Assembly (NCBI RefSeq): GCF_024508275.1
Contig: NZ_CP101989.1
Coordinates: 1,550,001 to 1,614,000, forward strand
Length of the DNA: 64,000 nt
Reading direction: 5' to 3'
Source of the DNA: Cellulomonas wangsupingiae
GTDB taxonomy: Bacteria > Actinomycetota > Actinomycetes > Actinomycetales > Cellulomonadaceae
Numbering within the stretch: the first letter of the stretch is position 1; each line of letters begins with the position of its first letter. This document shows, in pieces, positions 3,884 to 42,463 of the stretch. The notes under the pieces were generated by a model. The model was not told where the DNA came from. It did not search any database and was given only the letters and a program-made list of their open reading frames with translations. A program made the translations under genes and the position numbers.

Positions 3884-4507
3884 TCAGCCGGGTCGGACCA
3901 GCTCCGCGAAGACGACCACGTTCGCCTCGTAGTGCCGGACGGTCCGGTCCCACTCGCCGCCGCAGGTGATGAGGCGGAGCCCGGCGTGGTCGATGTCGCC
4001 GTAGACCGCGTCCGTCGGGAACTGGTCCTTCGGGTGCTCCTCGACAGCCGTGACCTGGAACACCGGGGCCGTTCCGTCCGTGCGGGTGACCCGGATCTCG
4101 TCCCCCACGGCGAGGTTCGCGAGCTCGTAGAACACCCCGGGGCCGGAGGCCCAGTCGACATGGCCGGCGATGACCGCGGGGCCGAGCTCACCGGGTGTCG
4201 GCGCGCCGTCGTACCACCCGGCGGGGAAGCCTGCCGGGGGAACCTCCAGGGTGCCGTCGTCCTGCAGGCCCAGCCTCATCAGCTCGGAGTCGACGCCGAT
4301 CGCGGGGATCTGCAGGCGCACCGGGACGGAGGCCGCCATCCGCACCGGCCCGCCCGTCCGGGCCGGAGCCGGCGCGGGCACCGCGGTGACCGCTGGGGCC
4401 GTCGCGCGGGTGGCCGGGTCAAGGGCTTTCGGCGCCGCGGAGCTGCACGCGGCGGTCGTCAGGACGAGTGCGACCGCCCAGGCGGGCGCACCCGTCCGTC
4501 CCGTCAC
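3884..4507 (-). CDS. Class F sortase, predicted lipoprotein
   Basis: A 207-residue transpeptidase that should join sorting-signal proteins to the cell surface. The N-terminus has a hydrophobic segment ending in TTAAC, a lipobox with Cys21, so the enzyme is probably lipid-anchored outside the membrane. A variable linker leads to the sortase barrel from about residue 60. Candidate catalytic residues are His116 (in AGHVDW), Cys182 (in LITCGG) and an Arg at 188 or 191. The GTG start overlaps the stop of the DUF3494 gene by four bases, so the two are translationally coupled, and that protein is the obvious substrate candidate. Length fits class F (about 200 residues). Confidence 0.88.
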   Translation of the reverse strand: MTGRTGAPAWAVALVLTTAACSSAAPKALDPATRATAPAVTAVPAPAPARTGGPVRMAASVPVRLQIPAIGVDSELMRLGLQDDGTLEVPPAGFPAGWYDGAPTPGELGPAVIAGHVDWASGPGVFYELANLAVGDEIRVTRTDGTAPVFQVTAVEEHPKDQFPTDAVYGDIDHAGLRLITCGGEWDRTVRHYEANVVVFAELVRPG

Positions 4508-13074: not shown

Positions 13075-14496
13075 ATGCCCACCACGCTCATCCGCGGCGG
13101 CACGGTCGTGTCGGCCACCGGCCGGGTCGCGGCCGACGTGCTCGTCGACGGCGAGACCGTCGCCGCCGTCCTGGCACCCGGCTCGACGCTGCTCGGCCAC
13201 GACCTCGCGGCGTCCGTCGACCGGGTCCTCGACGCCACCGGCCGGTACGTCGTGCCCGGCGGCGTCGACGCCCACACCCACATGGAGCTCCCGTTCGGCG
13301 GCACCGCGGCGTCGGACACCTTCGAGACCGGCACGCGAGCCGCCGCGTGGGGAGGCACGACGACGATCATCGACTTCGCGGTGCAGCGCGCGGGCGAGCG
13401 CGTCCAGGACGGGCTCGCCGCGTGGCACGCCAAGGCGGCGGGGCGCTGCGCGGTGGACTACGCGTTCCACCAGATCATCGGTGGCGTCGACGACGACTCC
13501 CTGAAGGCCATGGCGACCCTCGTGGACGAGGGCATCACGAGCTACAAGCTGTTCATGGCGTACCCCGGCGTGTTCTACGCCGACGACGCGCAGATCCTGC
13601 GCGCCATGCAGCAGGCGGCCGAGCTGGGGCTGCTGACGATGATGCACGCCGAGAACGGGCCGGCGATCGACGTGCTCGCCGCCCAGCTCGTCGAGCAGGG
13701 GAGGACCGGCCCGTACTTTCACGGCGTCGCCCGCGCGTGGCAGCTCGAGGAGGAGGCCACGCACCGCGCGATCATGCTGGCCGACGTCACGCGCGCGCCC
13801 CTGTACGTCGTCCACGTGTCCGCCAAGCAGGCCGTGCAGCAGCTCGCGTGGGCGCGGGACGCCGGCAGGAACGTCTTCGGCGAGACGTGCCCGCAGTACC
13901 TGTACCTCTCGCTGGAGGAGCAGCTCGGCGCCCCCGGCTTCGAGGGCGCGAAGTGGGTGTGCTCGACGCCCCTGCGTGCCCGCGCCGAGGGGCACCAGGA
14001 GCACATGTGGCGGGCCCTGCGCACCAACGACGTGCAGATGGTGTCCACGGACCACTGCCCGTTCTGCTTCAAGGGCCAGAAGGAGCTCGGCGTCGACGAC
14101 TTCCGGGCGATCCCCAACGGCATCGGGTCGGTGGAGCACCGCATGGACCTCATGTACCAGGGCGTCGTGACGGGGGAGATCACCCTGGAACGGTGGGTCG
14201 AGATCACCTCGACGACGCCCGCGCGGATGTTCGGGCTGTACGGGCGCAAGGGCGTCGTCGCACCCGGCGCCGACGCCGACCTCGTCGTCTACGACCCGGC
14301 GGGGCACACGTCCATCGGCGTCGGGGCCACGCACCACATGAACATGGACCACTCCGCCTGGGAGGGGGTCGAGGTCGACGGGCACGTCGACCTCGTGATG
14401 TCCCGGGGCGAGGTCCTCGTCGACGCCGACGGCTACCACGGCCGCCCCGGGCACGGGCGCTACCTGCGGCGCGACCTGTCGCAGTACCTGGTCTGA
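13075..14496 (+). CDS. hydA: Dihydropyrimidinase (D-hydantoinase)
   Basis: A 473-residue cyclic amidohydrolase that opens 5,6-dihydrouracil or dihydrothymine (and hydantoins) to carbamoyl amino acids. The metal site is clear: HTH in DAHTHME near residues 65-68, the carboxylated Lys in TSYKLFMAYPG, His in MHAENG, His in YVVHVS, and Asp in STDHCPF. Length fits the family (about 460-480). The ATG at 13075 has the site GAGGAAGGAG. It lies between beta-ureidopropionase and the LLM gene in one transcription unit. Confidence 0.94.
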   Translation: MPTTLIRGGTVVSATGRVAADVLVDGETVAAVLAPGSTLLGHDLAASVDRVLDATGRYVVPGGVDAHTHMELPFGGTAASDTFETGTRAAAWGGTTTIIDFAVQRAGERVQDGLAAWHAKAAGRCAVDYAFHQIIGGVDDDSLKAMATLVDEGITSYKLFMAYPGVFYADDAQILRAMQQAAELGLLTMMHAENGPAIDVLAAQLVEQGRTGPYFHGVARAWQLEEEATHRAIMLADVTRAPLYVVHVSAKQAVQQLAWARDAGRNVFGETCPQYLYLSLEEQLGAPGFEGAKWVCSTPLRARAEGHQEHMWRALRTNDVQMVSTDHCPFCFKGQKELGVDDFRAIPNGIGSVEHRMDLMYQGVVTGEITLERWVEITSTTPARMFGLYGRKGVVAPGADADLVVYDPAGHTSIGVGATHHMNMDHSAWEGVEVDGHVDLVMSRGEVLVDADGYHGRPGHGRYLRRDLSQYLV

Positions 14497-32066: not shown

Positions 32067-33483
32067 CGGCGTCGGGCTGCCGGCGGACTACGTGCCGATG
32101 GGCTCGCTCGCCCTCACGGACGGCGAGCGCTGGCCGACCCTCCCGGAGTCCGACCTGCGACGGGTGGCCGACGCGCGCGCCCACCCGGCGGCGCCGCACT
32201 GGCAGCACGAGACGGGTGACCGCCTGGAGCCGGCCGATCTCGCGGCCCTCGCGAGCCGGGCGCCGGTGTCCGCGAGTGCCGGCCCGTCACCGCCGGACTG
32301 GGTGGCGGCGCTCGTCGAGCGGGCGCACCGCACCGTGCCGCGGTACCGCGCGGCCGCCCGGGACGGACGCAGCGGCCCGACGACGCCGCTGCGCGACCTG
32401 CCGACGGTGACGCGGCGCGACCTCGTGACCGGGCTCGCGGCGCACGTCCCGCTCGACGTGCCCCTCGACAGGGTCCTGCAGGGCACGAGCTCGGGCAGCA
32501 CGGGCGCGGCGCTGCGGGTCCCGCTGCACCCGCGGACGGTCGCCGCGGACCTGCTGCTGCTGCACGCGCTGGTGACGGGCGCGGGCGCGTCGTGGCCGGC
32601 CGACCGGGCGCGCCTCGGGCTGGTGAACCTGGTCGACCAGCGTGCGGCGTTCACGTACGTGTCGGCGATGTCGGCGTTCCCGCGTCCCGTCGGGAGCCCG
32701 GCGCCCCTCATGGCGCGCGTGAACCTCGACGTCGGCGCGTGGCGCACGCCCGCCGACCGGGAGCGGTGGTTCGCGGAGCACGACCCGCAGGTCGTCAGCA
32801 CGAGCAGCGTGCCGCTGGTGCACCTCCTGGACCTCGCCGAGGCGGGCCTCGCCGTGCGTCCGGTCGCGGTCGTCAACGGTGCCACGCACGTGACGCCGGC
32901 GGTGCGCCGCCGGGTCCGCGACCTGTGGGCCGCACCGCTGGTCGACCTGTACGGGCTGCGCGAGACGGGTCCCGTGGCGGCCGCGTGCGACGCGGGGCGC
33001 GAGCACGCGCTCGTGGCGCGCCGGGTGCACGTGGAGGTGCTGGACCCGGCCGGCCGGCCGCTGCCGGCGGGCCGGCGCGGGGAGGTCGTCGTCACCGTCG
33101 ACGAGAACCCCTACCTGCCGCTGCTGCGGTACCGCACCGGCGACCACGCCGCGCTGGGCACCGACGACGCGGGGCGGCCCGTCCTCCTCGACCTCGAGGG
33201 GAGGGCCGCGGTGCGCTTCCTCGACGCGACCGGCGCCGCCCGCCCGTCCGTGGACGCGACGCAGGTGCTGCAGGCCGCGGGGCTCACCGCGTGGCACCTG
33301 CACCAGGACGCCGACGGCGACGTGCGGCTGAGCGCCGTGGGCGACGCCGCGGCGGCCGCAGCGGCGGTGCGCGCGGTGCGCGAGTGGCTGGGCCGACCCG
33401 TCGGGCTCGAGCTGCTCGGCGACGTGGGCGCGCTCGGGCAGGGCAAGCCGGCACGCTACTCGAGCGCGCTCGACCTGCCCTGA
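32053..33483 (+). CDS. PaaK-like adenylate-forming enzyme at the end of the MoxR operon
   Basis: A 476-residue member of the phenylacetate-CoA ligase (PaaK)-like AMP-forming superfamily. The ATP-binding loop SSGSTGAALR lies near residue 145-154, the A5-type motif YGLRETGP near 300, and LPLLRYRTGDHA near 360. The C-terminal GQGKPARYS would carry the A10-type lysine. It could adenylate a carboxylate for ligation to CoA, an amine or a protein; the acceptor is unknown. There is no adjacent acyl-carrier protein or PaaK pathway gene. The ATG at 32053 overlaps the preceding gene by 14 bases. The 3' end overlaps the convergent PucR gene by 28 bases. Confidence 0.82.
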   Translation: MPTTDGVGLPADYVPMGSLALTDGERWPTLPESDLRRVADARAHPAAPHWQHETGDRLEPADLAALASRAPVSASAGPSPPDWVAALVERAHRTVPRYRAAARDGRSGPTTPLRDLPTVTRRDLVTGLAAHVPLDVPLDRVLQGTSSGSTGAALRVPLHPRTVAADLLLLHALVTGAGASWPADRARLGLVNLVDQRAAFTYVSAMSAFPRPVGSPAPLMARVNLDVGAWRTPADRERWFAEHDPQVVSTSSVPLVHLLDLAEAGLAVRPVAVVNGATHVTPAVRRRVRDLWAAPLVDLYGLRETGPVAAACDAGREHALVARRVHVEVLDPAGRPLPAGRRGEVVVTVDENPYLPLLRYRTGDHAALGTDDAGRPVLLDLEGRAAVRFLDATGAARPSVDATQVLQAAGLTAWHLHQDADGDVRLSAVGDAAAAAAAVRAVREWLGRPVGLELLGDVGALGQGKPARYSSALDLP

Positions 33484-35003
33484 CCCCGCCGGCCGTCCCC
33501 GGCTGCGGCGCCCGTCGCGGGTGACGGTCCGACCAGCCGGTGCGCCTCGAGAGCCAGGGCGAGGGCCGTGCGCGTCCGGGGGTCGTGCAGATCGGCACCG
33601 AGGAGCTCACCGATGCGCTGCAGGCGGTGCTTCATCGTGTTGTAGTGCACGAACAGCCGCCGCGCGGCCTCGGCGGCGTTGCCGAGCCCGAGGAACACCT
33701 CGAGCGTGCGGCACAGGTCGCCGTCGACCTGCAGGTCGTGCCGCAGCAGCGGCCCGACCTGGTCCTCGACGAAGTCTCGCAGCCGGTCGGGGGGCAGGCT
33801 CAGCACGAGCCGCTCGAAGCCGAGGTCGGCGTAGCGGGTCGTCGACCGGTGGGTCACGCCCGCGATGTGCAGGACCTCCTGGGCCGTGGCGTGGCTGCCC
33901 GGCAGCGCGGTCAACGTCGGCGCCGGGCAGCCGGACGCGACCACGGTCGGGCCGGCGCCGGCGCGCTCGAGCGCCTCCCGGAACGCCTCCTCCGCACGGG
34001 CGTGCGCCGGCGCGATCGCGACCACCTGCGTCCCCCGCAGCCACGCCACCGCCGTCGCTCCCAGCGTGCGCCGGGCCGCGGACTGCAGGGACCGTTCCGA
34101 CGGCGCCGTGGTGCACGCGGCCAGGAGCACCGTCGACGTCCCCCCGAGGTCCCACCCGAACAGCCGCGCCCGCTGCTCCAGCGCGTCGGCGTCCAGGCTG
34201 GTGGCGGTGACGAGCTCCTCGAGGAAGACGACGCGCAGGCGGCGGTCGAGCTCGATGCTCGCCAGCGCCTGGGCGATGTGCATCCCCGCCGCGAAGCAGG
34301 CCTGGCGGACCAGCCGGCGTTGCGCGAGCGACGGCTCGTCCTGCCCGCCGACGAGCACGTGCCCGCGTCGTACGCCGGCCACGGTGACGGGGAACTCCCA
34401 GCGCACCGTGCGTCGCCCCGGCGCGGCCGGCGTGTCCTCCGCCGGTGTCTGCGGCGACCCGCCGAGGACGAGAGCGTCGTCGGCCACGACCTCGACCGAG
34501 CGGTCCAGCGCGCCGGCCAGGGTCCGCGCGATCTCCTCCAGGCCGCCGCCGGCCAGCGCGATGCCGGTCAGGCGCTCGCGGATCACCTCGTCGTGGGCGG
34601 GCTCGGGGTCGTGCTCGGCGAGCACGACCCCGAGCACCGCCGTGATGACCTCGTTGAAGGACGTGTCACCGGGCACGACGAGCACCGGGAACGCGAGCTC
34701 GTCGGCGAGCTCGGCGAACCGGTCGGGCAACCGCTCGACGTACCGCAACGGCTTGATCGCGAGGGCCGCCAGGCCGCGGGAGTGCAGGAGGCGGAGCAGG
34801 CCGACGAGGCTCTCGGGCCGGTCCCGCACGGGGTAGGCCGTGGTGAGGAGCAGCTCACCGGGCTTGATGTACGGCTCGATGTCGGGGACCTCCATGACGT
34901 TGACACCGCTGACCAGCCGGTCGATGCCGGAGTCACCCGCCAGCACGTACGTCCCCCGCAGGGGCGCCAGGGTCATGACCTCGCGGACGGTCAGTGTCGC
35001 CAC
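33456..35003 (-). CDS. PucR/CdaR-family transcriptional regulator
   Basis: A 515-residue regulator with an N-terminal PucR purine-catabolism-type sensory domain (about residues 5-125, SGVNVMEVPDIEPYIKPGELLL) and a C-terminal PucR helix-turn-helix (about 430-490, EVFLGLGNAAEAARRLFVHY). PucR proteins control purine, ureide and related nitrogen-catabolism genes. The GTG at 35003 gives MATLTVREVM, the usual start, behind AAGGGGCAGCC. It is divergent from the allH-allF-allG cluster with a 93-base gap, so it is the likely regulator. Confidence 0.9.
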   Translation of the reverse strand: MATLTVREVMTLAPLRGTYVLAGDSGIDRLVSGVNVMEVPDIEPYIKPGELLLTTAYPVRDRPESLVGLLRLLHSRGLAALAIKPLRYVERLPDRFAELADELAFPVLVVPGDTSFNEVITAVLGVVLAEHDPEPAHDEVIRERLTGIALAGGGLEEIARTLAGALDRSVEVVADDALVLGGSPQTPAEDTPAAPGRRTVRWEFPVTVAGVRRGHVLVGGQDEPSLAQRRLVRQACFAAGMHIAQALASIELDRRLRVVFLEELVTATSLDADALEQRARLFGWDLGGTSTVLLAACTTAPSERSLQSAARRTLGATAVAWLRGTQVVAIAPAHARAEEAFREALERAGAGPTVVASGCPAPTLTALPGSHATAQEVLHIAGVTHRSTTRYADLGFERLVLSLPPDRLRDFVEDQVGPLLRHDLQVDGDLCRTLEVFLGLGNAAEAARRLFVHYNTMKHRLQRIGELLGADLHDPRTRTALALALEAHRLVGPSPATGAAAGDGRRGQGRSSALE

Positions 35004-35084: not shown

Positions 35085-35099
35085 TACGGTCACAGTATG
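35085..35099 (+). promoter_or_regulatory. Leaderless-type promoter of the AllH-AllF-AllG cluster
   Basis: TACGGT (35085-35090) stands six bases before the ATG at 35097, with no ribosome site between them. The 93-base divergent gap should also contain the PucR binding site and the regulator's own promoter. CAGTTCGGACG (35050) and ACTTCGGACG (35020) are imperfect direct repeats of TTCGGACG 30 bases apart, which could be operator half-sites. Confidence 0.5.
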
Positions 35100-35969
35100 A
35101 CGAACAGGTGCATCTCGGGCGTCGGGCCGGCGCGGCTCGCCACCGACGCGCCCGTGCCGGACGTCCTCGTCACGGCGAGGGTCGTCCACGTCGGACGCAC
35201 CTCGGTCGTCCTGCGCACGGCGGACGGCACGCTGGTCCCGGTGACGTCGGCCGCCCACGGCCTGGTGCCCGGTGGCGTGTGCCTGGCGGCTGCCGCCGGC
35301 GACCCCGGGCCGGCGCTGCGCGCGGTGGCCGGGGCGGCGCCGAACCGCGACCTGTGGCTGACGTCGCTGCAGGGTGCGCCGCGCGTGGACCTGGTGGTGC
35401 CGAAGGGTGCCGTCGACGCGGGCGCCGCCCGGGCGCTGCTCACCGGTGCGCTCGTCGCGGCGTCGTCCGGTGGTGGGCGGGGTGTCATGGACCCCGGCCC
35501 GGCACGCCGGGGGGCGCGCACCCTGGTCGGTGCCGCCGCCGGGGACGACCCGCGCGGCGTGCGCGCCGTGCTGCACCGGCTCGTCGGCGTGGGACCGGGG
35601 TCGACCCCCAGCGGCGACGACGCGGTCGTCGGCGTGCTCGCGGGCCTCGACCGGCGGGACGACGCCGCCGCCGCGCGCGCCGGTGCGGCGATCCGTCGCG
35701 CGCTGCCCGCCGTCCTGCACCGCACGACGAGCCTGTCGCGCCACGCCCTGGCGGCGGCGCTGCGCGGTCAGGTCGCCGAACGGGTCCAGCTGCTCGTGGC
35801 CGCCACCGCCGACGCGGCGCTCGTGCCCGGCGCGCTCGCGTCGGCGCGCACGTGGGGCGCCAGCTCCGGGCTCGACCTCGCGGCCGGCGTGGGAGCCGGC
35901 GCGCTCGGTGACGCGGCCGCGGCCCACCCGCCGGCCCGGCCCGCCGACGAGCATCGGAGGACCGCATGA
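35097..35969 (+). CDS. allH: DUF2877 protein, oxamate carbamoyltransferase subunit AllH-like
   Basis: A 290-residue DUF2877 protein. GVGPGSTPSGDDAVVGVLAGL in the middle is the signature stretch of this family, whose E. coli member (formerly YlbF) is now described as the AllH subunit of oxamate carbamoyltransferase. The enzyme converts oxalurate plus phosphate to oxamate plus carbamoyl phosphate. The ATG at 35097 lies six bases after a -10 hexamer. Its stop overlaps allF by four bases. Together with AllF, AllG and a carbamate kinase downstream the set is complete, though the true carbamoyl donor here is not known. Confidence 0.8.
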   Translation: MTNRCISGVGPARLATDAPVPDVLVTARVVHVGRTSVVLRTADGTLVPVTSAAHGLVPGGVCLAAAAGDPGPALRAVAGAAPNRDLWLTSLQGAPRVDLVVPKGAVDAGAARALLTGALVAASSGGGRGVMDPGPARRGARTLVGAAAGDDPRGVRAVLHRLVGVGPGSTPSGDDAVVGVLAGLDRRDDAAAARAGAAIRRALPAVLHRTTSLSRHALAAALRGQVAERVQLLVAATADAALVPGALASARTWGASSGLDLAAGVGAGALGDAAAAHPPARPADEHRRTA

Positions 35970-37432
35970 CCACGACCAGCGCCGGCGCGCTGGCGGCGCG
36001 CGTGCTCCCGCGTCTCTACCGCGACTCCGTGACGCTCATGGCGCTGGCGTCGTCGCTCGAGCGCCGCGCGGGGGTGACGCGCGCCGGTGCCGTCATGGGG
36101 ACCCCCGGCAACCTCACCGTGCTGGAACGGTCCGGGATGCGGCCCGTCGGCCTCGCCCCGGCGCCCGACGACCTCGTGCTGGTCGTGCGCGGGCTCGACG
36201 AGGATGTGGTGGCGGCCGCGCTGGACGCCGGCGAGGCGGGCCTCGTGGCGGTGGAGCCGGAGCGCGGCGGCCGGCGCCGGCCCGTCCCGCAGACGGTCGG
36301 CGAGGGCCGGGCGGCCGACCCCGGCGCGACGCTCGCGGTCGTCTCGACGCCCGGCACCTACGCACCGGTCGTCGTCGAGCAGGCCCTGCGTGCAGGGCTG
36401 CACGTCCTGTGCTTCTCCGACAACGTGACGACGGCCGACGAGGTCCGGCTCAAGGCGCTGGCCGTGCGCCGGCGCCTGCTGCTCATGGGACCGGACTGCG
36501 GCACGGCGATCCTCGACGGCGTGCCGCTCGGGTTCGCCAACGCGGTGCGTCGCGGTCCGGTCGGCATCGTCGCGGCGTCCGGCACCGGCGCGCAGGAGGT
36601 CTCCTGCCTGCTGCACCGCGCGGGGACGGGCGTCTCACAGCTGGTCGGCGTCGGCGGCCGGGACCTGTCGGCCGAGGTGGGCGGCACGATGACCGACCTC
36701 GCGCTGGACCTGCTGAGCACGGACGACACCACGGCCGTCGTGGTCGTCGTGTCCAAGCCCCCCGCCGCGCAGGTGGCGCAGCGGCTGCTCGCCCGGCTCG
36801 CGGGGCTCGGCAAGCCCGCGGTGGCGTGCCTGCTGGGGCAGGACGACACCGACGGAGCGGTTCCCGTGCGCGGCACGCTCGAGGGCGGCGCGCGGCTCGC
36901 CGCGACCCTGGTCGGCGCGCCGCTCCACGTCGGGGCCGTCGTGCCGCCACCGGCCCCGGCCGCGCGGGGCGTGCTGGGCCTCTACACAGGGGGGACCCTC
37001 GCCGCCGAGACCCGGGTCGTCCTGGCGCGGGCCGGTGTCGACGCCCAGGTGCTCGACCTCGGGGCCGACGAGTACACCGTCGGCCGGCCGCACCCGATGA
37101 TCGACCCGTCCGCCCGCGCGGAGCGGGTCGCGGCGGCAGGCGGCCGTGCCGACGTCGGTGTCCTGCTCGTCGACCTCGTCCTGGGGTTCGGCGCCGCCGC
37201 CGACCCGGCGACGCCCCTGGCACGGGCCGCCGGGACGGCGGTCGCCGCCGCGCGTGCCGACGGCCGTGACCTCGTCGTGCTCGCGTCCGTGTGCGGCACG
37301 GACGGCGACCCGCAGGGCCTCGACGCCGCACGCCGCACCCTGGAGGGAGCCGGCGTGCTCGTCCACCCGTCCAACGCCGCCGCGGCGCGCACCGCCGTCG
37401 CGCTCGTCGCCGGGGGCGGGGTGCCCGCGTGA
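35966..37432 (+). CDS. allF: FdrA/AllF-like subunit (succinyl-CoA-synthetase-related)
   Basis: A 488-residue protein of the FdrA family, distantly related to succinyl-CoA synthetase alpha and beta subunits. SDNVTTADEVRLKALA, MGPDCGTAIL and AASGTGAQEVS are conserved segments. In E. coli this is the AllF (FdrA) subunit of oxamate carbamoyltransferase. ATG at 35966 overlaps the allH stop, with CGGAGG upstream. It should act with AllG and AllH as one cytoplasmic complex making carbamoyl phosphate. Confidence 0.88.
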   Translation: MTTTSAGALAARVLPRLYRDSVTLMALASSLERRAGVTRAGAVMGTPGNLTVLERSGMRPVGLAPAPDDLVLVVRGLDEDVVAAALDAGEAGLVAVEPERGGRRRPVPQTVGEGRAADPGATLAVVSTPGTYAPVVVEQALRAGLHVLCFSDNVTTADEVRLKALAVRRRLLLMGPDCGTAILDGVPLGFANAVRRGPVGIVAASGTGAQEVSCLLHRAGTGVSQLVGVGGRDLSAEVGGTMTDLALDLLSTDDTTAVVVVVSKPPAAQVAQRLLARLAGLGKPAVACLLGQDDTDGAVPVRGTLEGGARLAATLVGAPLHVGAVVPPPAPAARGVLGLYTGGTLAAETRVVLARAGVDAQVLDLGADEYTVGRPHPMIDPSARAERVAAAGGRADVGVLLVDLVLGFGAAADPATPLARAAGTAVAAARADGRDLVVLASVCGTDGDPQGLDAARRTLEGAGVLVHPSNAAAARTAVALVAGGGVPA

Positions 37433-38802
37433 TCGCCGGCGGCGTGCGGGTCCTCAACGTCGGCCTCCCGGCCGTCGTCCAGGGGGTGCCCGCGCAGGAC
37501 GTCGTCCAGCTCGACTGGCGCCCGCCCGCGTTCGGCGACGTGGCGGCCGCACGTCTCGGCGTCGTCCTCGACGACGACGTCACGCGCGCCGCCAACCGTC
37601 GCGCGCTCGCGGCGGTGCACGCGGTGCGCCCGCAGCTCGTGGCGGTGCGTCCTGCCCGTGACGTCGTCCCGGGCCTCGGGGAGGGACGCACGCTGCTGCA
37701 CGCAGGCCCGCCGCTCGAGGTCGAGCGGATGTGCGGACCGGTCCGCGGCGCGCTGATCGGTGCGGTCCTGCTCGAGGGCTGGGCCGGCACGCCCACCGAC
37801 GCCCTGGCCCTGATCGAGGCGGGCGGCGTCACGCTCGACGCGTGCCACCACCACGGCGCGGTCGGCCCGATGGCGGGTGTGCTGGCCCCGTCGATGCCGG
37901 TGCTCGTCGTGCAGGACGGGGCCCGCCGGGCGTACGCGTCGCTCAACGAGGGCCTGGGGCGGGTGCTGCGGTTCGGCGCGTTCGACGCCGAGGTCGTCGA
38001 CCGGCTGCGGTGGATGCGCGACGTGCTCGGGCCCGTGCTGGACGGCGCCCTGCGGGCCGGCGGGTCGGTGGACGTGACCTCCCTGGTCGCGCAGTCGCTG
38101 ACCATGGGCGACGAGGGGCACAACCGGTGCACGGCCGCGACGCTCCTGCTCGCGCGGCGTCTCGCGCCGTGCGTCGCGGAGCAGGACCGGGGCGTCGAGG
38201 TGCTGCGGTTCCTGGCGGAGAACGACCACTTCGCCCTCAACCTGTCGATGGCCGCGGCCAAGCTGTCCATGGACGCCGCCGTGGGCGTCGAGCACTCCAC
38301 GCTGGTGACCGCGATGGCGCGCAACGGCGTCGAGTTCGGGCTGCGCGTCGCCGGGACGGGGGAGCGGTGGTTCACGGCCCCCGTGGACGCGGCGGACGGC
38401 CTGTTCTTCCCGGGTTACGGCATCGCCGACGCCAACCCGGACCTCGGGGACTCCGCCATCACGGAGACGCTCGGCATCGGCGGCTTCGCGATGGCGGCGG
38501 CGCCGGCGATCACGCTCTTCGTCGGCGGCACCCCCGACGACGCGCTGGACACGACGCGCTCGATGGCGCGCATCACGCTGGGGCCGCACCCGGCGTTCCG
38601 GCTCCCGGCCCTGAACTTCGCCGGCGCACCCAGCGGCATCGACGTCCTCAAGGTCCTCGACACCGGCGTGCTGCCCGTCATCAACACCGGGATCGCGCAC
38701 CGGGAGGCGGGCGTCGGGCAGATCGGCGCCGGGATCGTCGAGGCGCCTGCAGGGGTCTTCCTCCAGGCGGTCCGCGCGCTGCACGAGGTGCGGGTCCGAT
38801 GA
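37429..38802 (+). CDS. allG: DUF1116 protein, AllG-like subunit
   Basis: A 457-residue DUF1116 protein (E. coli YlbE, renamed AllG). [35 protein letters not shown] and [12 protein letters not shown] are typical. It is expected to be a subunit of the transcarbamoylase with AllF and AllH. GTG at 37429 overlaps the allF stop (GTGA) and its TGA overlaps the carbamate kinase ATG, so all subunits and the kinase are translated in a chain. Confidence 0.88.
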
Positions 38803-40499
38803 CCGGCACCGTCCTGCTCGCCGTGGGCGGCAACGCGCTCGTTCTCGACGGGGAGCCGGGGTCGGTCGCCCGCCAGCAGGAGCGCGCGGCGCGCTTCGCC
38901 GACCAGGTCGCCGACCTGGTCGGCGACGGCCGGCAGGTCCTGGTCACGCACGGCAACGGGCCGCAGGTCGGCTTCATCCTGCGCCGCGGCGAGCTCGTCG
39001 CCCCGGACGCGAGCGTCGAGGGCCTGCCGGAGCTGCCGCTGTGGCTCGCGGTGGCCGACTCCCAGGGCGGGATCGGCCACCTCCTGGCGGTGGCCGTCGA
39101 CTCCGCGCTCGAGCGACGCGGGCTCGACTCACGGGCTGTCGCCGTGCTCACGCACGTCGAGGTCGACGCCGACGACCCGGCCTTCGCCCTCCCCACGAAG
39201 CCGATCGGCGCCGCGATGACGAGCTCGACCGCCCGGGCGCGCACCGCCGAGGGCTGGACGGTCATCGAGACCGCGCCGGGGGTCCACCGCCGGGTCGTGC
39301 CCAGCCCCCGGCCCCGACGTGTGGTGGAGGCCGAGCAGATCCGCGCGCTCGTGCACACCGGCGCCGTCGTGGTCGCGGCCGGCGGTGGGGGCATCCCCGT
39401 CGTCCGCGCCGCGGACGGTTGGCACGGCGTGGACGCCGTCGTCGACAAGGACCGCGCCTCGGCGCTGCTCGCGGCGTCCGTCGGCGTCGACACCCTCGTG
39501 CTCGTCACGGGCGTCGATGAGGTGAGCGTCGGGCGGGGGACACCGCGGCAACGGGCGCTGCGCGAGGTCGACCCCGTCGAGCTGCGCGCGCACCTCGACG
39601 CGGGCGAGTTCCCGCCGGGCTCGATGGGTCCCAAGGTCGAGTCCGCGCTGCAGTTCGTCGCCGACGGTGGCAGACGCGCCGTCATCACGTCCCTGCCCCG
39701 CCTGCGCGACGCGCTCGAGGGCCGGTCCGGGACGCTCCTGACCGCCCGGGACCGCCCGGCGCCCCCGACGCCCACAGCCCTCTCGCCCGCGTCGACACCT
39801 GGAGAGCCGATGATCACCCTGGCCGCCGACCCGTTCCCCTACGTCTTCGACCCCCGCCGCGTCGCGCTGCTGTGCATCGACTTCCAGCGCGACTTCATGG
39901 AGGCCGGGGGCTTCGGCGAGTCCCTCGGGAACGACGTGTCGCGGCTGCGCGGCGCGATCGAGCCGACGAGCCGCGTGCTGGAGGTCTTCCGGGACCGCGG
40001 CTGGCCGGTCATCCACACCCGCGAGGGCCACCGCCCGGACCTCACCGACCTGTTCCCCGCCAAGCGGGACCGCGGCAGCCCCACGCTGCGCATCGGCGAG
40101 GACGGCCCGATGGGCCGCGTGCTGGTCCGCGGCTCCGCCGGTCACGGCATCGTCCCCGAGCTCGCGCCCGTCGAGGGCGAGGTCGTCCTCGACAAGCCCG
40201 GCAAGGGGTCGTTCTACGCGACGGACCTCGAGACCATCCTGCGGGCCCGGGGCATCACGAGCCTCGTCGTCACGGGCGTCACCACCGAGGTGTGCGTCCA
40301 GACGACGGTCCGCGAGGCGAACGACCGCGGCTTCGAGTCCCTCGTCCTGTCCGACTGCACGGCGTCGTACTTCCCGCAGTTCCACCGCTCCGCACTCGAC
40401 ATGTTCTGCGCCCAGGGCGGGATCGTGGGCTGGGTCGCCACCTCCGACGCGCTCCTGACCGCCCTGCGCACCACGACGCACGAGGAGGTCCCACGATGA
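38799..40499 (+). CDS. Carbamate kinase fused in frame to a biuret-hydrolase-like cysteine amidohydrolase
   Basis: One uninterrupted 566-codon frame. Residues 1-315 are carbamate kinase ([44 protein letters not shown]), which makes ATP from carbamoyl phosphate. A Pro/Thr linker (about 318-337) joins it to an isochorismatase-fold hydrolase, residues 338-566, with candidate triad Asp361 (CIDFQRDF), Lys466 (DKPGKGSF) and Cys499 (TTEVCV). [10 protein letters not shown] and DKPGKGSF closely resemble biuret hydrolase. An internal ATG at 39810 with GGAGAG upstream could also yield the hydrolase alone (229 residues). No stop codon separates the two parts in the given sequence. The stop overlaps the permease ATG. 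Confidence 0.87.
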
Positions 40500-42463
40500 G
40501 CACTGCCGCACGCGAGGTGTCGACCGCCGACCGTCCCGCCGGCACGCCCGGCCGTCTGCCGTGGTGGACCCCGGGGGACTGGAACGGCCTGTTCGGCCTC
40601 GGCACCAACGTCCTGCTCAACGTCATCGTCCTGACGGGCCTGTGCCTGGCGGTCGTCCAGATCCCGGGCGACACCGTCTACGGGCGGATCCTGCCCGCCC
40701 TGGGCATCGCGCTGCCGCTGGGCAACATCTGGTACGCCGTGCTCGCCCGGCGGCTCGCCCGCCGGGAGGGCCGCTCCGACGTGGCGGCGCTGCCGTACGG
40801 GCCGAGCGTGCCGCACACGTTCATCGTCGTCTTCGTCGTCATGCTGCCGGTGCTGCTGCGCACGCAGGACCCGCTGGCCGCCTGGCGTGCGGGGCTGGCC
40901 TGGGCGTTCATCATCGGCTGCATCGTCCTGCTCGGGGCGGTCTTCGGCCCGTGGATCCGGCGCTGGACGCCGCGGGCGGCGCTCCTCGGCGCGCTCGCGG
41001 GCATCTCGATCACGTTCATCTCGATGAGCCCGGCCGCGCAGATGTGGCAGGCGCCGTGGATCGCGTTCGTGGCCTTCGGTTTCATCCTCGTGGGCTGGCT
41101 CGGTGGGCGTCGCATGCCCTTCGGGGCGCCGGTCGGCCTGGTGGCGGTGCTCGTCGCGACGGCGGTCGCCTGGGCCGCGGTCGCCGCCGGCTGGTCGGGC
41201 ATCCTCGAGCCGAGCGCGGTCACGCAGTCGGTCGCGGACCTCGCGCTGCACCTGCCGCTGCCGTCGGCCGACGTCGTCACAGGGCTGCAGGACATCGCCC
41301 CGCTGCTGGCCTCGGCGATCCCTCTGGGCATCTACAACTTCACCGAGGGCATGACCAACGTGGAGTCCGCCGCCGCGGCGGGGGACCGGTACTCCGCGCG
41401 GCAGGTGCTCACGGCGGACGGGCTCGGGGCCGTCGTCGGCTCGTTCCTCGGCTCGCCGTTCCCGCCCGCGGTGTACATCGGGCACCCGGGCTGGAAGGCG
41501 GTCGGCGGACGCGTCGGGTACTCGCTGGCGACGGGCGTCGTGGTCGGCCTCGTGTGCTTCACCGGGCTGGTCGGCACGTTCCTGGCGGTGTTCCCCATGC
41601 AGGCGCTCGTCCCGGTCCTGCTGTACATCGGCCTCGTCATCGGCGCCCAGGCGTTCGACGTCAACCCGCGACGGTACGCGCCGGCGATCGTGCTGGCGAT
41701 CGTCCCCAGCCTCGCCGAGTGGGCGACCGGGCTGATCGACAACGCGCTCGCCGCCGCGGGCACGTCCGCGGAGGAGGTCGGGACCGGTGCGCTCGTCGCC
41801 AACGGCGTCGTCTACGACGGCCTGCGGCTGCTCGGGCAGGGCGCCGTCCTCGTCGGCATCCTGCTGGGCGCGATCGCGTGCTTCGTGATCGACCGCCGCC
41901 TGTACGCCGCGGCGATCACGTCCGGCATCGCCGCGGTGCTGTCGTTCTTCGGGCTCGTCAACGCGCTCGAGGTGGGCGTCAACGCCTCGCCGGCCGTGAC
42001 GCTGGGCTACGTCCTGCTCGCCGTGCTGCTCGCGTCGTTCGGGTGGCGCCTGCGGCACGAGCGGGACGACGCGCTGGACGACGAGCTGCTCTTCGTCAAC
42101 GGCAGCCTCATGCGCGGGCTCGAGCTGCACGCGCACCTCGACGGCGCCGAGCTGGTGGCGGAGACGACGACCGCACCGCGGTACCGCGTGCACGCCGTCG
42201 ACGGCCGGCACCCGGGCATGTACCGCGTCGCGGACGACGAGGAGGGGGCGGCCGTCCATGGCGAGCTGTACCGCGTGCCGGCCGAGGTGCTGGTGCGGGT
42301 GGTCGAGGGCGAGCCGGCCGGGCTGTACCGGGGGCCCGTGGAGCTCGCGGACGGTCGCCTCGTGCCCGGCATCCTCGACCACCGGGCGAGGGCGCAGGAG
42401 CACCCCGAGATCACGCAGCACGGCGGCTGGCGGGAGTACCTGGCGACGACGTCGCCGGCCTGA
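40496..42463 (+). CDS. NCS2/AzgA-like permease fused to an allophanate-hydrolase C-terminal-like domain
   Basis: A 655-residue fusion. Residues 30-525 form about 12-14 hydrophobic segments of a purine/ureide-permease-like transporter ([35 protein letters not shown]). Residues of about 529-655 are soluble and resemble the gamma-glutamylcyclotransferase-like C-terminal domain of allophanate hydrolase: [44 protein letters not shown], and HGGWREY. In allophanate hydrolases that domain handles the carboxycarbamate product. Fused here it could bind or process the imported ureide at the membrane. ATG at 40496 overlaps the upstream stop. It is the last gene of the cluster. Confidence 0.85.

Follow-up and report, generated by a model that had tools for sequence, protein, structure and literature searches.

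What would the three subunits of an oxamic transcarbamylase do in an operon that also encodes an isochorismatase and a domain known from allophanate hydrolase? The question is raised by a 64,000-nucleotide stretch of Cellulomonas wangsupingiae (contig NZ_CP101989.1, positions 1,550,001 to 1,614,000; hereafter the window), taken from a genome of 4.12 Mb in a single contig (G000). Its forward strand carries at 35097-42463 an operon with the order AllH, AllF, AllG, carbamate kinase-isochorismatase and permease-AH_C, AH_C being the C-terminal domain of allophanate hydrolase. Two operon proteins that we compared are 94-99% identical to Cellulomonas proteins. We propose, giving the idea about an even chance, that the operon encodes a triuret-using, ATP-yielding pathway; triuret is a urea polymer of fertiliser and oxidised uric acid. 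We report gene content, residues, trees and recurrence, and suggest how AH_C might act on carboxybiuret, what AllFGH may cleave, and how transport and regulation could proceed.

Specificity of the isochorismatase domain

Carbamate kinase and isochorismatase share a single stop-free frame of 566 aa (38799..40499), which matches PF00696, the carbamate kinase subfamily model (3.9e-93) and PF00857 (3.1e-44). The best PDB match of the isochorismatase domain (39807..40499) is 6XIX (1.7e-82), the triuret hydrolase TrtA; after further TrtA chains come the biuret hydrolases (BiuH) 6XJM and 6AZO (PMC7948467). The residues that tell TrtA from BiuH were taken from the same paper. Catalytic D24, K129 and C162 are all kept, and the substrate residues are E72, K132 and Q202. 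All five TrtA residues tested are present, F35, N41, E160, Y187 and I205 (FNEYI), whereas the BiuH references 6AZO and 6XJM carry Y, Y, D, T and V (YYDTV) at those positions. At A134, the sixth position published, the operon enzyme has S like BiuH; this substitution was reported to do no harm (PMC7948467).

A careful tree of 52 rows, from which the fragment L032 was excluded, places the operon enzyme and characterised TrtA in a 42-row clade that is split from the BiuH references with support 100/100. Within it, the 8-row clade of the operon is sister to the 8-row clade of characterised TrtA (94/91 for the 16). From residues and tree, the domain is predicted to be of the TrtA type and to hydrolyse triuret. 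The initial annotation had called the enzyme biuret-hydrolase-like and had made biuret the compound hydrolysed. As homology the label holds, the curated BiuH model giving 270.5 bits, below its cut-off of 370; this model is a weak test, as an enzyme with BiuH residues at locus L077 scores only 278.3. As specificity we reject it, since the residues (0/5 of the BiuH set) and the tree argue against a biuret hydrolase, and a route through BiuH fits L077 and L078 better.

The kinase-isochorismatase fusion is narrow, since a stop separates the two domains in the related locus L005 and they lie in different frames in L006-L010; in L004 the frame is also stop-free. Both domains occur in one protein in nine cases, the operon protein included, among the 120 listed of 788 isochorismatases (P0086 is 331 aa long). 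This list came from a TrtA-type query and scored tandem proteins by their best domain first. Loci L004-L010 carry the FNEYI residues, with the exception of L008, which has V at 35. Two tandem isochorismatase domains are found in P0002, P0004, P0005, P0008 and P0027, some of them green algal by source name.

AllFGH, AH_C and the proposed pathway

The operon holds all three oxamic transcarbamylase subunits. AllH (DUF2877; 35097..35969) matches PF11392 (4.5e-19). AllF (FdrA; 35966..37432) matches PF00549 (1.1e-25), the FdrA model (2e-126) and PDB 3DMY (6.6e-78); its score on the FdrA subfamily model, 422.7 bits, is slightly below the cut-off of 433. AllG (DUF1116; 37429..38802, GTG start) matches PF06545 (5.1e-87), with residues 53-451 aligned to PDB 3CLQ (1.5e-114), and is the one PF06545 match in the genome. 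The genes named in the initial annotation are all present, and so are the reported overlaps: all four junctions are 4-base stop/start overlaps. In a quick tree, the operon AllG falls outside the E. coli AllG clade, within a clade of eight rows linked to TrtA and AH_C; seven of these rows were retrieved by the TrtA query and are TrtA-linked by construction. We would class this AllFGH as a family member and would not file it as an oxalurate enzyme.

The last gene (40496..42463) fuses a membrane permease to AH_C (42089..42445; PF21986, 1.3e-31). This in-frame fusion recurs in 7/7 related loci (L004-L010), so that of the two fusions for which the initial annotation had suggested a check in other genomes, this one is general among them. 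AH_C occurs here without the amidase part of allophanate hydrolase, which rules out allophanate hydrolase activity for the domain alone. We consider it probably a decarboxylase, a prediction from the domain family; Fan and others reportedly found in 2013 that the C-terminal part of yeast allophanate hydrolase decarboxylates. The N and C domains of allophanate hydrolase catalyse sequential reactions (PMC5770610). Most aligned AH_C domains of the module carry the motif NGTLMRGL, which is absent from AtzF of pADP-1, and the activity of AH_C therefore need not match that of AtzF.

AH_C is also fused directly to isochorismatases. Fourteen of the 120 listed isochorismatases bear PF21986; 12 have the exact FNEYI residues, P0045 has D160, P0059 is degenerate (N24, Y35, G162), and none is of the BiuH type. 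Their AH_C is up to 69% identical to that of the operon (P0070). AtzH-like PF11533 is found in six other listed isochorismatases, five with exact FNEYI and one with Y35, and a SnoaL-like domain in one (exact FNEYI). Exact YYDTV occurs in 15 of the 120, with PF21986 or PF11533 in 0/15; BiuH-type fusions could be under-seen, given the TrtA-type query, the 120 listed of 788 and the best-domain-first scoring. At locus L085, an AH_C-TrtA frame lies inside an AllF-AllG-carbamate kinase cluster. No AH_C fusion to AllF, AllG or AllH was seen in the proteins and loci examined. AH_C is joined to a second transporter family, PF02133, in P0222, P0223, P0227 and P0229.

The permease part (40496-42060) has 13 hydrophobic segments by a crude hydropathy count; searches of it against Pfam and NCBIfam at E up to 5 hit no transporter model. 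Its AGZA-like label comes only from source names, and a profile comparison with four PF00860-type proteins (shallow alignments) found nothing to place it in NCS2. Among 8000 proteins scored, 7593 are relatives of this part at E up to 1e-5. Relatives of 42-47% identity lie on both sides of TrtA in the Erysipelotrichaceae/Tenericutes-type loci L022-L031.

In the pathway that we propose, the permease would probably import triuret or a related polyurea. The TrtA domain is predicted by residues and tree to convert triuret to carboxybiuret and ammonia, and AH_C, judging by its domain family and the TrtA-AH_C fusions, would decarboxylate carboxybiuret to biuret. AllFGH would then act by phosphorolysis, most likely turning biuret and Pi into carbamoyl phosphate and urea; its substrate may possibly be carboxybiuret or allophanate instead. 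Carbamate kinase would use carbamoyl phosphate and ADP to give ATP, ammonia and CO2, a reaction established for the family. Urea would go to urease, whose alpha subunit is encoded elsewhere in the genome (one of two urease-alpha matches is confirmed as such), or be excreted in relatives that have no urease. Biuret in this genome is more likely an intermediate consumed by AllFGH. Both carboxybiuret and allophanate break down spontaneously, the first to biuret and the second to urea (PMC6219798); the half-life of carboxybiuret is roughly 20 minutes (PMC7948467). Biuret would therefore arise with or without AH_C, and clusters that lack AH_C may depend on the spontaneous decay or have another substrate.

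Upstream, a divergent gene on the reverse strand (33456..35003) encodes a PucR-family regulator (PF07905 5.9e-21, PF13556, PF17853). The domain scan ran from an inner start, and the start codon given here is our reading of the sequence; the gap to the operon is ~93 bases. The regulator reported in the initial annotation is present and may control the operon.

Recurrence and known systems

We scanned the fused kinase-isochorismatase protein against 84,980 species genomes and obtained 32 loci, two of them weak (L034 and L035, 28-35%). A panel of 21 genomes was studied in detail (G000 and those of L004-L010, L015, L017, L021 and L022-L031); for the remaining eleven loci the analysis stopped at annotation. 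AllF and AllG adjoin the TrtA-type gene in 18/21 genomes, the operon included; in L022, L023 and L029 they were not seen in the fetched stretches, two of which are short or cut contigs. Detection of AllH by tblastn was incomplete. The named hosts include Cellulomonas, Actinotalea, Actinomyces, Salinibacterium, Mycobacterium, Burkholderia, Erysipelotrichaceae, Acholeplasmataceae and Tenericutes, and TrtA, AllF, AllG, kinase and AH_C are found together in other Actinomycetota (including Mycobacterium) and in Burkholderia. An ATP-recovering ureide route had been suggested for this operon from the start; the recurrence of much of the set in several lineages, with AllFGH and kinase in a non-allantoin operon, speaks for that part of the suggestion.

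A survey by AllG alone (PF06545) was made to lessen the bias of the TrtA query. AllG was found in 49/396 Actinomycetota genomes, in 6/392 of the phylum of G014 (an Erysipelotrichaceae/Tenericutes-type genome) and in 16/398 of the phylum of G010 (Burkholderia), at 78 places. We read 74, the other four being the operon, L025, L021 and one below cut-off. An isochorismatase of the TrtA/BiuH family lies within 10 kb of 12/74 and AH_C within the same distance of 7/74, and all seven places with AH_C also have isochorismatase, AllF and carbamate kinase. By residues, L078 has the BiuH type only, L077 both types, and the rest the TrtA type. The absence of genes at several places means little, because the stretches run out at the edge of a contig. 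Two changes on the AllG tree account for AH_C and three for TrtA. A gene between two isochorismatases in L014 and L016 was considered as TrtB and rejected, its model being an ABC transporter ATPase. In L025, a nucleoside diphosphate kinase gene (4056-4499) and the end of the carbamate kinase gene overlap. At L067 (5919-8299) and L070 (3718-8111) an AllG-like gene is divergent from a TrtA type and permease, with no AllF detected; in L070 an AtzF-like gene adjoins them.

The genome of C. wangsupingiae contains one isochorismatase of the TrtA/BiuH family at E up to 1e-20, and a model search of it found no allophanate hydrolase above cut-off; the published route through BiuH and AtzF is therefore not seen there. 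In the 21 genomes, allophanate hydrolase and BiuH each exceed the cut-off once, both in the Burkholderia genome G010, where a cluster of BiuH, AtzH-like and AtzF genes is separate from the TrtA-AllFGH cluster.

Four known systems resemble the operon. E. coli allFGHK (oxamic transcarbamylase with catabolic carbamate kinase) has the same three subunits and an adjoining kinase; the operon differs in AllG clade, gene order and partners, has a TrtA type and AH_C, and its cluster is without AllC, AllD and AllE. The TrtA-TrtB-BiuH-AtzF pathway of Herbaspirillum and Rhizobium shares the TrtA-type enzyme and probable decarboxylation of carboxybiuret (PMC7948467), whereas C. wangsupingiae has neither BiuH nor AtzF above cut-off and has AllFGH and carbamate kinase instead. 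As published, this hydrolytic triuret/biuret route names no ATP-forming step. AtzF shares its C-terminal AH_C with the operon, whose AH_C lacks the amidase domain and sits on a permease. In comammox and archaeal neighbourhoods, allFGHK adjoins trtA and biuH genes, much as in the operon; unlike the operon, comammox has BiuH and AtzF, and archaea have BiuH and a GatA-like amidase (PMC12625717). That paper assigns the allFGH of these organisms to oxalurate, and extracts of its text do not mention permease-AH_C. In searches of open-licence literature it was also the one paper to come up for triuret together with carbamoyl phosphate, or for biuret together with carbamate kinase. If the triuret pathway is real, its phosphorolytic route would be the polyurea counterpart of the arginine deiminase pathway, and allFGHK clusters labelled allantoin or oxalurate metabolism, including nitrifier ones, would gain a physiological role.

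Competing substrates and the AllFGH family at large

Several observations weigh against a triuret pathway. Proven AllFGH activity is confined to oxalurate and oxamate (PMC11326118). For the isochorismatase tree, the software warned of long branches meeting, those of RhdBiuH and the BiuH rows and those of the Erysipelotrichaceae/Tenericutes rows; the isochorismatases of the latter have H160/F187 in place of E/Y, and the ten genomes of that type (G011-G020) show no match to the allophanate hydrolase model in the AH_C range. The TrtA-type enzyme of L093 departs at two substrate positions (K72, L202). A second panel comprised 13 genomes, of which 11 have an isochorismatase of this family; allophanate hydrolase is above cut-off in 5/13 (4/11 with the isochorismatase; G1055 has a 453-bit partial match) and BiuH in 3/13. 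Urea would often be lost, because urease alpha is present in only 5/21 genomes of the detailed panel. The co-occurrence seen at the AllG places has a chance figure of 4.4e-7, which ignores relatedness. The AllG tree gave no support for independent origins of the TrtA/AH_C/AllFGH set: with 18 long or divergent rows dropped of 93, a single AH_C clade was not rejected (AU p 0.296), and a sign test had no power.

The initial annotation had noted that no allantoin gene is present, and this is so for the cluster. The same genome, however, has a urate-allantoin locus near 3.12 Mb, 1.5 Mb from the operon, with uricase, allantoinase, hydroxyisourate hydrolase, OHCU decarboxylase, an M20 peptidase, a class V aminotransferase, an RpiR-type regulator, xanthine-dehydrogenase-like proteins and an AtzH-like + amidase frame. 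Oxalurate is the expected product of a PucG-type aminotransferase, and its possible supply from this locus is a further point against triuret. AllFGH might then cleave this oxalurate, with isochorismatase and AH_C handling other ureides under the same regulator. We think this unlikely, even though E. coli AllFGH has the activity (PMC11326118) and a 2025 paper on nitrifiers interprets comparable neighbourhoods as oxalurate metabolism (PMC12625717). The operon AllG stands apart from the E. coli clade, with the reservation on its TrtA-linked rows made above, and allantoinase above cut-off is absent in 18/21 TrtA-type genomes, some of them incomplete assemblies (G000 is among the three that have it; weaker matches, including related amidohydrolases, occur in 12). 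Because of its AtzH-like + amidase frame, moreover, the locus may have its own enzyme for oxalurate, a possible disposal pair, as we presume after hpxZ/hpxY.

AllFGH might also act directly on carboxybiuret, giving carbamoyl phosphate and allophanate, which AH_C would then decarboxylate. The Erysipelotrichaceae and Tenericutes sets without AH_C agree with this, as do other AllFGH clusters that adjoin AtzD-family ring-openers. The product of barbiturase is ureidomalonate, of which carboxybiuret is an isostere. AtzD-family ring-openers yield carboxybiuret (PMC6219798). The step seems improbable to us, for AH_C is fused to TrtA (L085, listed proteins) or to the permease and not, as far as seen, to AllF, AllG or AllH, and an AH_C working after TrtA would destroy carboxybiuret first. 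Hydrolysis of biuret to allophanate followed by phosphorolysis of the latter, as initially annotated, is in our judgement very unlikely here: TrtA was reported to act on biuret with 1.7e-5 of its activity on triuret (PMC7948467), and a second isochorismatase to do the work is missing from the genome at the threshold given above. It suits other loci. L077 (958-12683) and L078 (948-10440) have an AtzD-family gene, a BiuH-type isochorismatase, AllHFG and carbamate kinase in one cluster, and their genomes have no allophanate hydrolase above cut-off. With BiuH just upstream of AllH-AllF-AllG-carbamate kinase and the AtzD-family gene beside them, these two fit allophanate phosphorolysis; the AtzD-family gene of L077 scores 540.8 bits on the cyanuric acid hydrolase model (cut-off 360), and cyanurate use by phosphorolysis is possible there.

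Returning to triuret as the substrate of the operon, we tentatively set it in a wider frame, for which our confidence falls a little short of even. Ureidomalonate, carboxybiuret and oxalurate share an H2N-CO-NH-CO- head, hence the idea that oxalurate cleavage is not the main role of AllFGH and that its members would form a family of acylurea phosphorolases (H2N-CO-NH-CO-R + Pi -> carbamoyl phosphate + H2N-CO-R), put to use on oxalurate, triuret/biuret, cyanurate and in oxidative pyrimidine breakdown, with a gain of ATP each time. An AtzD-family gene lies near AllFG in L044, L043, L046, L049, L050, L052, L053, L056, L058 and L097, with carbamate kinase in 8/10, and the ten Actinomycetota AllG places with such a nearby ring-opener all fall in one 26-row AllG clade. 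The neighbours in L044 (2588-17671), a cytosine-deaminase-like enzyme, xanthine/uracil permease, molybdenum hydroxylase and amidase, match what a path from uracil through barbiturate to ureidomalonate would call for, so a phosphorolytic barbiturate route for pyrimidines is possible. These neighbours are what suggests a barbiturase; against it, the score of the L044 ring-opener is above the cut-off for cyanuric acid hydrolase as well (456.5 versus 360). No report joining barbiturase with carbamate kinase was found in open-licence literature, and one may exist elsewhere.

On plasmid pADP-1 (L003, 7798-12448), a membrane protein near atzC and carbamate kinase has homologues in the AllFGH clusters L077, L078 and L076 and another next to AtzD of L029, a hint that an AllFGH-type cluster gave rise to the atzC neighbourhood. 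In the window itself, a dihydropyrimidinase/D-hydantoinase (13087-14466; 527 bits, cut-off 393) lies ~20 kb from the operon.

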